Translations under genes and position numbers: made by a program
Notes under the pieces: model-generated
What the model saw: the letters and a program-made list of their open reading frames with translations, nothing else
What the model was told of the DNA's origin: nothing
Databases searched by the model: none
Shown here: one piece after another, positions 945 through 30,858 of the stretch
How positions within the stretch are numbered: position 1 is the first letter of the stretch
Layout: each line of letters begins with the position of its first letter
IMG/VR virus record: IMGVR_UViG_3300036406_001206
Span: 1-32,131 of that record
DNA length: 32,131 bases
Source of the DNA: a virus
Strand: one strand, 5' to 3'

Positions 945-1727
945 ATGGGTTTTCCATTTAAAACAAGAGCCACATCGGAGTTCGTAACACTTACCACTAA
1001 AAACGGTGATAGCTTTGAAATTGAGAGTAGAAATGATATTACCGTATTAGAAGACAGCAAATATCAGCAATTATTACAAGAACATAATGTCAAAGATGAA
1101 ACACGATTATTATTAGACTTAGCTGCTTTGATTAGTCGAGAAAAAGGGGTAACTGCTGACCGTGCCTTAAAAGTTATTATTCCTACTCAAGATATAACGA
1201 CTGATGAAGAAAAGGAATTAGAAAAAGAAAACGATAAAATCAGAGGTGAATATACCGGTAAAATCGTTGAGCTAAATACTGAGATTATCTTAGCTTCTGC
1301 TAGTAAGTCTCTCTTTGGTGCTTATGTCATCTACCCTAGATTGTTAGGTCCGATTGAGGCTCGCATTAAAGAGATTAAAGCCAAATCTGCTGGTCGTGAT
1401 TATACTGAGGAGGAAAAAGTAGAAGTATCTATTTTGGAACAACAGATTGATGACATCAACGGATGGACGTTAGAAGACATCAAGCAATTACCAAAACAGG
1501 TAGTTGAGGCATTGGCTAAGTTTTTTAATACTGAATCCGCTGGTAAGCAGGAGGTGGCAGTAGATGAGGAATCGGGAAAATCATCATCCCCCAGAAAGAG
1601 CAAGTCCTCAAATACAAAAGACAAGAGCCTACCGACTGGGGAAAAATCTACTGGAGAATCCAACGGTACTGGCCCCATGACAGAAGATTTAGTTATGGTG
1701 AGTTCGGGTATCAGTCAAGAGGGTTAA
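945..1727 (+). CDS. Tail assembly chaperone, short (zero-frame) form
   Basis: 260 aa; AAAAGGAT precedes the ATG. Residues 1-200 are acidic and alpha-helical with short coiled-coil stretches (around 85-110 and 145-170). From about residue 205 the zero-frame protein becomes a low-complexity S/K/T/G tail (ESGKSSSPRKSKSS), typical of the end of a G-type chaperone read past its frameshift site. Position directly between the tail tube and the joining/tape measure genes fits the G/GT pair of lambda-like tails, which coat the tape measure during tail assembly and are absent from the finished virion. A slippery heptamer lies in phase at codons 211-212 and leads to a second product. Confidence 0.7.
   Translation: MGFPFKTRATSEFVTLTTKNGDSFEIESRNDITVLEDSKYQQLLQEHNVKDETRLLLDLAALISREKGVTADRALKVIIPTQDITTDEEKELEKENDKIRGEYTGKIVELNTEIILASASKSLFGAYVIYPRLLGPIEARIKEIKAKSAGRDYTEEEKVEVSILEQQIDDINGWTLEDIKQLPKQVVEALAKFFNTESAGKQEVAVDEESGKSSSPRKSKSSNTKDKSLPTGEKSTGESNGTGPMTEDLVMVSSGISQEG
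1574..1580 (+). promoter_or_regulatory. Programmed -1 ribosomal frameshift site (GGGAAAA)
   Basis: The heptamer GGGAAAA lies exactly in the X_XXY_YYZ phase of the upstream gene (zero frame TCG GGA AAA). A -1 slip gives GGG AAA and continues in a frame open from 1568 to the stop at 2233. AGGAGG at 1549-1554 and GAGGA at 1566-1570 could pair with 16S rRNA and stimulate slippage. A later G4A5 run near 1638-1646 is out of phase. Site and phase are read directly; efficiency cannot be judged. Confidence 0.75.
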
Positions 1728-21312: not shown

Positions 21313-21321
21313 TGGTAAAAT
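21313..21321 (+). promoter_or_regulatory. Extended -10 promoter of the KilA-N gene
   Basis: TGGTAAAAT, an extended -10 (TGn plus TAAAAT), preceded by CGATATTTA. The Bro-N gene has the matching CGATATTTTATGGTATAAT at the same distance from its leader. The start site would fall near 21328, which rules out translation from an upstream ATG at 21312. Confidence 0.6.
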
Positions 21322-21335
21322 ATTTATATAAAAAT

Positions 21336-21401
21336 TCCCCTCGCTGGTTGGTACTGGAATACCGGGACCACAGGGGATGTAACCTAAATGGAGAGGTCAC
21401 A
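21336..21401 (+). ncRNA. Structured leader RNA, copy A (riboregulator candidate)
   Basis: Stem I TCCCCT (21336-21341) with AGGGGA (21372-21377); stem II GGTT (21346-21349) with GACC (21366-21369); stem III GGTA (21350-21353) with TACC (21360-21363), a GG bulge at 21364-21365. Then GTAACCT (21379-21385) can pair with AGGTCAC (21394-21400), enclosing the ribosome binding site GGAGAGG. The copy at 30772-30836 keeps every helix; stem III there is GATG/CATC, two compensated base-pair changes. Confidence 0.75.
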
Positions 21402-22175
21402 ATGAGTAATTTATCATATCAAGGAAACAGTATAACCCAAAGAGATGGCGACGGGTATGTCAACGCTACCCAAATGGCAAAAGCTAATGATGCAAGGTTT
21501 GACAACTGGATCGCAACCGAAAATGCTAAGGAATACCTGAAAGCCTTGCAGGAGTCTGATCTCCTGGAAAGTCAGGAAAACAATAAAACCCTTATTGTTG
21601 TAGAGTCCAAAGGTTTTCCTGCTATTAAAACTATGTGGGTTCATCCTCTCGTTGCGATAGCCTTCGCTCAGTGGATTAGTCCAAGGTTTCATGTTTGGTG
21701 TAACCAGCATATTAAGACGTTACTAGAAACAGGTAAAACCACAACAGGCAAGTTTAAGCACAATCTTGAATGGTATGACCGCCTACTTTACTACAAAGCT
21801 AGGACAAAAATAGAAGTTGGTTATTTCTCAATCTTTGAAGAATTAAACAATTCAATCATCAGCGAATTAGAACACTCTGGTTATACCTTGCCACTAGGTT
21901 CTGTCCCTGATATTAGTGTTGGACAATGTTTTTGTAATTACCTCAGAAGTATTGGCTATAACCTAGAGAAAATAACCAAACTTTATACTCATTATTATCC
22001 TGATGGACGGGTAGTAAAAGCCAACGTTTATTCTGATGAAGTATTGGCTATTTTCAGGAAATGGTTGCAACTAACCTACAAAACAACTCAATTCCCTAAG
22101 TATTTAAAAGGTAAAGACCCGTTAGCACTTCCTACTCTTAATCAATTATTAGGGTTGCCGGATGGAGCTATTTAA
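21402..22175 (+). CDS. KilA-N domain protein with shared C-terminal domain
   Basis: 257 aa from the ATG at 21402 behind GAGAGG. KilA-N DNA-binding domain at about 3-110: YQGNSITQRDGDGYVNATQM, then WHPLVAIAFAQWISP-type core (MWVHPLVAIAFAQWISPRFH). KilA-N proteins act as phage regulators or antirepressors. The C-terminal domain (about 122-248, with GYFSIFEEL at 140-148, HYYPDGRVV, LAIFRKWLQLTYK and YLKGKDPLA) is shared with the Bro-N protein at 29995. Same leader, same MSNLS start, different N-terminal domain: a domain-swapped pair. A terminator follows. Confidence 0.85.
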   Translation: MSNLSYQGNSITQRDGDGYVNATQMAKANDARFDNWIATENAKEYLKALQESDLLESQENNKTLIVVESKGFPAIKTMWVHPLVAIAFAQWISPRFHVWCNQHIKTLLETGKTTTGKFKHNLEWYDRLLYYKARTKIEVGYFSIFEELNNSIISELEHSGYTLPLGSVPDISVGQCFCNYLRSIGYNLEKITKLYTHYYPDGRVVKANVYSDEVLAIFRKWLQLTYKTTQFPKYLKGKDPLALPTLNQLLGLPDGAI

Positions 22176-27097: not shown

Positions 27098-27795
27098 TCA
27101 AATGTCGCCCGAACTTTCTTGGCGGATTCTTCTGTTATTTTCTGGCATTGATTGTTCCCTTGTGCATTGGCTTTTTTGATATTCCGTGAAGCCAATGCTT
27201 CGGCAAAACCAACCGATGCCAGCTCAAAAAGGTCTAGGTTATCTCTGATATTGTCATTCTTGCCTAGTCCCTTTGCTAACTTGATCTGTTTAGCATCACC
27301 GCCTAATACTGGTATATAAATTGCATTGGTACATAATCCATAACCGATGCTGTTAACGCCATGATCTTGTAATACTGCCGTAAAAGAAACCCGTATCTGT
27401 TTACTCTTTAACCTTGCCTCGATTCTTTCCAGGTCTTCAGGTTTAGCACGGTCAATAATACTTTCTGCTAATTCTGGAGAGGCATCAATAAATTGTAAAA
27501 ATATTTTCGCCGCTTCTTGCCTGTAGGCTCGCCCGATTGATCCAGGTAATAGACCAATGATATATAAAATACCTTCACGGCCAGCGACGGGAGTAAACTG
27601 CTGTCCTTTTCCAGGGAATTTATAGCTGTCGGTTTTTTCGACGACTTCTGAAAACTGTTTAGAGACAACACTCCAAGAGTCTCTAGGGTTCTTCTTTCCA
27701 CAAAACTTAATCACATCCAAAACAGAATAACGTCCATCTTCAGTCATTCTAATTTCTTCGGGGAACCCATCAAACGATATAATATTACTTGCCAT
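27094..27795 (-). CDS. Bro/KilA-type phage regulator-like protein
   Basis: 233 aa, GAGG before the ATG. N-terminal domain about 1-105: IRMTEDGRYSVLDVIKFCGK, a W..V and F.P.AGREG..Y...LLPGS segment, resembling the Bro-N fold of phage antirepressors. The C-terminal part (about 130-210: VSFTAVLQDHGVNSIGYGL, CTNAIYIPVLGGDAKQIK, RDNLDLFELASVGFAEALAS) follows a pattern found in many phage proteins next to Bro-N or KilA-N domains. It differs from the C-terminal domain shared by the genes at 21402 and 29995. Its leader is also structured. Confidence 0.65.
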   Translation of the reverse strand: MASNIISFDGFPEEIRMTEDGRYSVLDVIKFCGKKNPRDSWSVVSKQFSEVVEKTDSYKFPGKGQQFTPVAGREGILYIIGLLPGSIGRAYRQEAAKIFLQFIDASPELAESIIDRAKPEDLERIEARLKSKQIRVSFTAVLQDHGVNSIGYGLCTNAIYIPVLGGDAKQIKLAKGLGKNDNIRDNLDLFELASVGFAEALASRNIKKANAQGNNQCQKITEESAKKVRATFD

Positions 27796-27856
27796 GTAAA
27801 CCTCAATTTTATTTGGCCGTACCCAGATTGTTTCTGCAATGCTGGGTAACTTTACA
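27795..27856 (-). promoter_or_regulatory. Structured leader of the Bro-like gene
   Basis: On the minus strand TACCCAG and CTGGGTA (27842-27848 with 27820-27826) form a 7-bp stem, extended past a bulged G by ATTG/CAAT with a 6-nt loop. Around it TGTAAA (27851-27856) can pair with TTTACA (27795-27800), which includes the first base of the ATG and encloses the GAGG binding site. A TGTTATAAT extended -10 (complement of 27863-27871) lies just upstream. Confidence 0.5.
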
Positions 27857-29994: not shown

Positions 29995-30771
29995 TTAGTT
30001 GAGTAATTTCAAATCAAATAAATTACCTGATAGTTGCACCTGTAATAGGTCGCTTAATATCCCTATTGCTCTGGGGTCTTTTTTCTTTAGATAGGTGTAG
30101 AGATGATTGATCTTATAGGTAAACTCTAGCCATTTCCTAAACTCAGCCAACAAACAATCTTGATAAATAAAAGCATCTCGAACGCCTCGCTGATCGGGGT
30201 AATGATGTTTATATTTCATCCTGAGTTTTTCGACGTGAGGGTATTTACTTTCAACATAATCAGACCATCTTTTACCAGCAGAAATGTCTATCCCTGAATT
30301 ATCTGGCAGGACATAACCTGCTGATTCAAAATCAGATATTAAAGTATGACTTAATTCCCCAAAAATGGAGAAATAACCGGGCGGGATTCTTGACCGTTCT
30401 TTGAATAATTGGTATCTATCAAACCAGATTATGTTTTTTCGACCGCCTGAGTTGTATTGTCCAGTTTTACGGATAGCGGGTAATACTTCTTCAAATACCC
30501 ATCGCTGAAAATCTTTAGCTATTGATTTTCGGCTAGTGAATATCAAAGCATAAAGTCCAGCTTCTGTAACTGTTACCATCTTTTGGTTTCCACCAAGGGT
30601 ATAGACACTAGCTACACCCTTTTGATAGTCGTCTAATCGTTTAATTGCGTCGCTTGCGTTTTGGATACCTAGAATATTACAAACATCTTGAGCCACCCAC
30701 TCAGGCTTATCAGGTGTCCCTACGAATCGCACATCTTGACCATCAAACCGGAATACTGATAAATTACTCAT
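29995..30771 (-). CDS. Bro-N domain protein with shared C-terminal domain
   Basis: 258 aa from the ATG complementary to 30769-30771, behind GAGAGG; MSNLS matches the start of the KilA-N gene at 21402. Bro-N domain about 5-105: FDGQDVRFVGTPDKPEWVAQ, DVCNILGIQNASDAIKRLDD, VTEAGLYALIFTSRKSIAKD, FQRWVFEEVLPAIRKTG, the usual phage antirepressor domain. C-terminal domain (about 114-240: GYFSIFGEL at 132-140, HHYPDQRGVRDAF, LLAEFRKWLEFTYK, YLKKKDPRA) is shared with the KilA-N protein. Same leader RNA. Confidence 0.88.
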   Translation of the reverse strand: MSNLSVFRFDGQDVRFVGTPDKPEWVAQDVCNILGIQNASDAIKRLDDYQKGVASVYTLGGNQKMVTVTEAGLYALIFTSRKSIAKDFQRWVFEEVLPAIRKTGQYNSGGRKNIIWFDRYQLFKERSRIPPGYFSIFGELSHTLISDFESAGYVLPDNSGIDISAGKRWSDYVESKYPHVEKLRMKYKHHYPDQRGVRDAFIYQDCLLAEFRKWLEFTYKINHLYTYLKKKDPRAIGILSDLLQVQLSGNLFDLKLLN

Positions 30772-30836
30772 GTGACCTCTCACTTAGGTTACTTCCCCTG
30801 CGGTCCCGATGTTGATAGCATCAACCGGCGAGGGGA
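30772..30836 (-). ncRNA. Structured leader RNA, copy B (riboregulator candidate)
   Basis: Minus strand: TCCCCT (30836-30831), GGTT (30826-30823), GATG (30822-30819), loop, CATC (30811-30808), bulged GG (30807-30806), GACC (30805-30802), AGGGGA (30799-30794), then GTAACCT and AGGTCAC around the ribosome binding site. Copy A at 21336 has the same helices and the same GG bulge. Spacer letters in the loops and between stems vary, stems are kept. Confidence 0.75.
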
Positions 30837-30849
30837 TTTTTACTTCTTA

Positions 30850-30858
30850 ATTATACCA
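30850..30858 (-). promoter_or_regulatory. Extended -10 promoter of the Bro-N gene
   Basis: Minus strand TGGTATAAT, an extended -10, in the same position relative to the leader as TGGTAAAAT at 21313-21321; both are preceded by CGATATTT. Confidence 0.6.

Follow-up and report, generated by a model that had tools for sequence, protein, structure and literature searches.

Few regulators of DNA viruses are shuffled as much as the antirepressor and BRO/KilA-N genes, and little is known of their control outside P22 and P1. Hairpins over the ribosome binding site that sequester the Shine-Dalgarno (SD) sequence occur at the T4 homing endonuclease genes (mobE, I-TevI); as far as we know, these are single-gene structures which do not form a family of the kind described here. 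The leader RNA presented in this study likewise places a hairpin over the site of ribosome binding in selfish phage genes, but it is a homologous two-hairpin family found across many gene families. By analogy only, it also recalls the iron-responsive element, in which a bulged C on the 5′ side lies a few pairs below a 6-nt loop. The leader has such a 5′ bulged C below a 6-nt loop, but with 4 bp in between instead of 5, with other loop letters and in bacterial viruses.

Two studies describe control of the P1 antirepressor by C4 RNA (PMC8201110, PMC2864571). C4 (RF01695, P1-like phages) is likewise a small structured RNA before an antirepressor gene, which is its target, but here every gene has its own leader beside the start codon. 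In phage BTP1, aba overlaps the start of bstA; it is a DNA element with CCCGCC direct repeats at both ends that are needed for function (PMC8585504), and other BstA loci have their own aba. The leader resembles it as an element at the start of a gene with a BstA C domain. However, aba has little fold, whereas the leader has covarying stems and is found before many non-BstA genes. Among the open-licence papers listed on cyanobacterial antirepressors, leader RNAs and the Planktothrix phage PaV-LD, no title or opening of an abstract describes the leader. The initial annotation knew no named riboswitch with this layout, which agrees with the absence of any Rfam match at the gathering score in the window and at ten loci; in E-value scans of two leaders nothing rose above chance.

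Leaders in the window

The window, a stretch of viral DNA of 32,131 nucleotides (IMG/VR record IMGVR_UViG_3300036406_001206), contains one leader before a KilA-N gene and one before a Bro-N gene, with start codons at 21402 and 30771 (Table 1). Sequence and fold agree with the initial annotation on the positions, stem I, stem II and the GG bulge of both, and the two double changes in stem III, with pairing kept, were confirmed. The second helix, proposed to enclose the SD sequence, was borne out too: all 6 of its pairs change on both sides in some rows of the comparison given below. The covariance model R3, whose training rows include both window leaders, matches them at 21331-21409 (E 1.4e-22) and 30764-30841 (E 2.4e-23). 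The likeness between the two loci extends to the -10 region and to the first codons (MSNLS). In the Bro-N leader (30836-30720, minus strand), the 6-nt words CCGGTT and TTGATG are direct repeats that recur in its own first codons; the KilA-N leader is free of direct repeats of 6 or more.

A divergent third leader, absent from the initial annotation, probably lies at the start of the minus-strand gene beginning at 27795, a candidate that is weak if taken alone. Fold and reading by eye give 7 bp, a bulged C, 4 bp and a 6-nt loop. With filters off, R3 reports it at 27782-27852 with an E-value of 0.84, as one of several matches at such a level. The protein encoded behind it matches no Pfam family.

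Table 1. Positions of leader elements and of the genes behind them in the window
Feature	Position	Strand	Details and basis
Leader 1, -10-like hexamer upstream	21316..21321	+	TAAAAT; sequence
Leader 1, hairpin I	21336..21377	+	stem I, C bulges, stem II, GG bulge, stem III, loop CTGGAA
Leader 1, SD-enclosing helix	21379..21400	+	GTAACCT/AGGTCAC, A.C mismatch inside
KilA-N gene with BstA C-terminal domain, 257 aa	21402..22175	+	Pfam KilA-N 1.8e-22
Gene behind third leader, antirepressor-like, 233 aa	27094..27795	-	PHROG 8036, PADLOC PDC-S13
Probable third leader	27820..27848	-	TACCCAG-c-ATTG-CAGAAA-CAAT-CTGGGTA, TATAAT upstream
Bro-N gene with BstA C-terminal domain, 258 aa	29995..30771	-	Pfam Bro-N 4.5e-20
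Leader 2, SD-enclosing helix	30772..30792	-	fold, covariation
Leader 2, hairpin I	30794..30836	-	loop CTATCAA; fold, covariation, R3
Leader 2, -10-like hexamer upstream	30850..30855	-	TATAAT; sequence

Relatives and covariation

The search of cyanophage and cyanobacterial genomes with covariance models, as proposed in the initial annotation, found relatives in both. The duplication is thus not private to one phage, and the family spans several phages and cyanobacterial genomes. A 97-kb IMG/VR relative of the window (G001) carries five copies. These comprise the KilA-N leader, the Bro-N leader, a third copy (76% identical) before a different 214-aa ORF and two strongly diverged leaders that were recovered with a covariance model of four leaders (E 4e-4 and 0.004), one of which precedes a second KilA-N gene and the other a 210-aa ORF. 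In the isolated phage PaV-LD, model R2 gave matches at E 1.4e-6 and 1.4e-5 and R3 detected 5 leaders at E <= 1.2e-4; another at E 0.056 (L060 44755) was omitted from set A9. No leader was found with R2 in five other cyanophages.

Among 388 genomes of one cyanobacterial order, 6 were matched by R2 and 16 by R3 (28 matches at E <= 0.01, seven of them in one genome). Twelve of these 16 have a match at E <= 1.1e-6, the other four only matches that were dropped; the five weakest of the 28 range from E 5e-5 to 0.004. In two family samples, R2 matched 3 of 27 genomes and 2 of 61, with one false match in the second sample. In the wider phylum the counts were 1 of 386 with R2 and 4 of 329 with R3 at E <= 1e-4, one of the four (L095) having no ORF of 100 aa behind it. 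Five Nostoc and Desmonostoc genomes gave no R2 E-value better than 4.9, and no relative came out of an initial genome scan based on the two-protein alignment. The leader family is rare among the cyanobacterial genomes scanned. The five weakest matches speak against the pattern: L095, L096, L097 and L106, each lacking an ORF of 100 aa behind, were dropped from later sets, as was L088 (E 0.004), which falls within what looks by eye like an AAA ATPase gene.

A compact-hairpin pattern returned 68 IMG/VR stretches, of which 54 (27 distinct sequences) have a stem I of at least 5 bp, the pattern itself having fixed one of these pairs; in 49 of the 54, an SD sequence with an ORF of at least 60 aa follows as well. 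R3 has 55 matches at E <= 0.001 within the IMG/VR stretches, several of which score 28-33 bits, near the false match L088. With the SD-helix pattern, 14 stretches were obtained from viral contigs; five contain the leader (L004, L005, L006, L034, L041) and the remaining nine look unrelated by eye. A second hairpin pattern gave one real leader and one unrelated stretch. The loop-motif scan recovered the two window leaders and the five of G001 together with one likely chance match, two real leaders amid many chance matches in PaV-LD, and chance-like matches only in phage G004.

Against shuffled sequences, the folding energies of the two window leaders reach z-scores of -1.3 to -2.0, which is weak alone, and the 76% identical copy in G001 has a z-score of -0.15. 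Since single-sequence folding only modestly beats shuffles, the claim of an RNA structure rests on comparison, and here the idea of a selected structure is supported by covariation over the relatives. It was followed in sets of 4, 17 and 32 distinct leaders, each nested in the next. In the smallest, a MAFFT alignment made without structure and not fitted to the model, 22 of 22 pairs hold in every row. Seven of them change on both sides, a number reached by none of 500 shuffles, and the slid controls gave 0. In the 32 leaders, 96.8% of the pair cells pair and 21 of the 22 pairs show changes on both sides, compared with 36-48% pairing when partners are slid by 1-3 columns; in the SD helix 98-99% of the cells are paired. 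For 28 distinct IMG/VR leaders, pairing holds in 98.1% of the cells with both-side changes in 14 of 22 pairs, five of the 22 occurring in one row only. Both larger alignments, of 32 and 28 leaders, were fitted to the model and are biased towards it.

Read by eye, the common core in set A9 consists of an outer stem, a C bulge, a G-C pair, a bulged C, a 4-bp apical stem and a loop of 6-7 nt, often with AA at its end. Stem II and its 3′ bulge are inserted in some copies, including those of the window KilA-N and Bro-N genes. Letters are strongly conserved in the SD helix and around the CGC bulge. Almost every row has the A.C mismatch in the SD helix, including rows in which the letters of the stem are entirely different.

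Genes behind the leader

Of the 28 matches in the order genomes, 22 run up to the start codon of an ORF that is 100 aa or longer (22 of 23 at E <= 1.1e-6), two of these start codons being TTG. Both proteins encoded behind the main window leaders have the BstA C domain in common with BstA of phage BTP1, a feature absent from the initial annotation. The 257-aa KilA-N protein matches PHROG 6287 BstA at 1.1e-32 and PADLOC BstA at 5e-21 over 123-238; for the 258-aa Bro-N protein the values are 2.9e-25 over 86-247 (PHROG 6287) and 7.1e-21 over 105-232 (PADLOC BstA).

For a wider view, 30 downstream proteins were compared (10 from phages and 20 from genomes; near copies and broken ORFs excluded). Pfam assigns KilA-N to 7 of them, Bro-N to 4 and Rha, AntA, ParB_N and DUF3987 to one each (E <= 0.01). 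PHROG BstA matches 11, some via the KilA-N part only, and leaves 19 unmatched. By blastp, three more resemble the AntA protein L079, and four (L081, L085, L086, L087) the N domain of the BstA-type protein L015. Three proteins, two of L059 and one of L084, form one unnamed family, and the ORFs of L032 and L047 have no family at a trusted score. Most leader-bearing genes encode antirepressor-type proteins (KilA-N, Bro-N, AntA, Rha, BstA-type). The mean column identity across the 30 is 13%, and no metabolic gene was seen among them. Two loci, L103 and L104, were omitted from this set as near copies of L105 and L099. L098 was omitted as well and kept in A9; at 1501-1580 (minus strand) it has an intact leader with a stop 3 codons after the start, a leader without a working gene.

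Several single loci deserve mention. The proteins of L080 and L082 share their C-terminal half (69% identity), whereas the N-terminus is AntA-like in L080 and of KilA-N type in L082, which on sequence comparison is a swap of the N domain with the leader kept in each. In G001 and G002 (L004 around 4080, L005 around 5030), the KilA-N/BstA gene resembles that of the window for about 220 codons only; other DNA then takes over and the gene ends early. L081, which was tested, is a two-HTH protein (PADLOC PDLC01151, noted there as often fused to Cas6), and L085, L086 and L087 are similar to it by blastp. Leader-like hairpins were also seen before ORFs that look GIY-YIG-like by eye, in three IMG/VR stretches, the near copies L114 and L156 and L129, the last being a pattern match only and not among the R3 matches. 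If true, these cases would extend the family to homing endonucleases.

Proposed control and its alternatives

Taken together, we consider it probable, at roughly 0.7, that the leader is a new family of cis-regulatory RNA at or near the mRNA 5′ end of phage antirepressor-type genes, in which a factor sets the SD helix. As judged from the sequences, its structure, conservation, position at the start codon and association with these genes are established. Of 38 leaders, a set that includes five weak ones, 32 are preceded by a hexamer matching TATAAT with at most one mismatch, against a mean of 23.4 and never more than 31 in 500 shuffles, and the leader therefore probably begins the transcript. 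Hairpin I, with its G-C pair, bulged C, 4-bp apical stem and loop of 6-7 nt, would be the recognition feature. The second, weaker helix with the A.C mismatch is predicted to pair the SD sequence just before the start codon. Among the 30 leaders (of 32) having an SD triplet, its probability of being unpaired is below 0.2 in 21 and at least 0.2 in nine. With the SD sequence enclosed by the helix in the majority of these leaders, the simplest expectation is that basal translation is low. Hairpin I may be bound by one common trans-acting factor, for which an RNA-binding protein from the host or shared among phages is the likeliest candidate; this factor would set the opening of the SD helix, so that potent switch and defence genes would be kept low until needed. 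Some points speak against this reading: the SD helix has just 6 pairs and a mismatch, which a ribosome could open unaided, the SD triplet is more accessible in the nine leaders just mentioned, the family is rare in the genomes scanned, and one leader is found before a DUF3987 gene (L092) and two before ORFs without a trusted family.

The initial annotation had considered a ligand or a phage protein such as the products themselves. Binding by the products is unlikely as a general rule, as 30 products have no common domain, and for the same reason a common factor reading hairpin I is likelier than autoregulation. A hairpin that senses a small molecule linked to infection or stress, with the SD helix opening or closing in response, would suit the strong letter conservation in the SD helix and around the CGC bulge as well as the single element before unrelated genes. 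Such a riboswitch is nevertheless unlikely: plain helices and a small bulge hold most of the conserved letters, there is no large pocket-like junction, the 30 proteins scanned include no metabolic gene and no Rfam riboswitch matches at the gathering score. A passive element without any regulator, where the mRNA is stabilised by its 5′ hairpin, the SD helix does no more than lower translation and a promoter-leader cassette spreads, would explain the closeness to the -10-like hexamer and the sharing of the whole leader and first codons by paralogues. We regard it as improbable, since the bulged C and the apical-loop letters are conserved while the stems are free to change, which would point to recognition and not to stability alone.

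The two described phage systems fit less well. Self-immunity of the aba type, with the leader DNA switching the BstA-type protein off for the carrier phage, is suggested by the BstA C domain in both window genes, by the overlap of both main leaders with the start of a BstA-family gene as in BTP1 and by the two 6-nt repeats of the Bro-N leader. Other BstA loci have their own aba, and so the letters may differ here. However, CCCGCC has 0 copies in the three window leaders plus 34 coding bases, compared with 2 in BTP1 aba, and the leader was not filed as aba because these repeats are absent. Further, the KilA-N leader has no repeat of comparable length, the folding energy of BTP1 aba is just -2.5 kcal/mol, the leader also precedes genes that lack a BstA domain and a true BstA-type gene of phage G004 has no leader match. 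Constant G.U pairs and one-sided bulges would also suit RNA better than duplex DNA, and an aba-like role appears very doubtful. An RNA of the C4 type, with hairpin I excised and pairing in antisense to the ribosome binding site of its own mRNA or of sister mRNAs, is highly improbable, although C4 RNA is described for antirepressor control in P1 (PMC8201110) and several leaders occur within one genome. The 5′ arm pairs better with the SD arm of its own leader than with those of other leaders in 14 of 32 only (a proxy with fixed arm windows; the control SD stem is better in 24 of 32), with no coevolution, and RF01695 is unmatched at the gathering score as well as in the E-value scans of two leaders.

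Returning to the factor-set SD helix, KilA-N, Bro-N, AntA, Rha and BstA-type genes all bear one homologous RNA tag, which suggests that a network of viral switch and defence genes is under common control, and the factor could be fished with a single hairpin. A more far-reaching version, a cross-virus regulon in which one factor, from the host or shared, recognises the bulged-C hairpin and governs the translation of dozens of unrelated genes, is tentative and falls somewhat short of an even chance. If true, resident and incoming phages would be switched through the same RNA tag, with domain-shuffled antirepressor, BstA-type and possibly homing-endonuclease genes of cyanophages and their hosts among its members. 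BstA-type defence genes also become testable in cyanobacteria. Finally, at least one annotated gene, the KilA-N gene ORF105L of PaV-LD, may need its start revised in the light of the leader. Its annotated start falls within the leader hairpin (L060 27629-27702; about 75.1-75.2 kb, minus strand), and the position of the leader suggests that the true start may lie 51 bases downstream.
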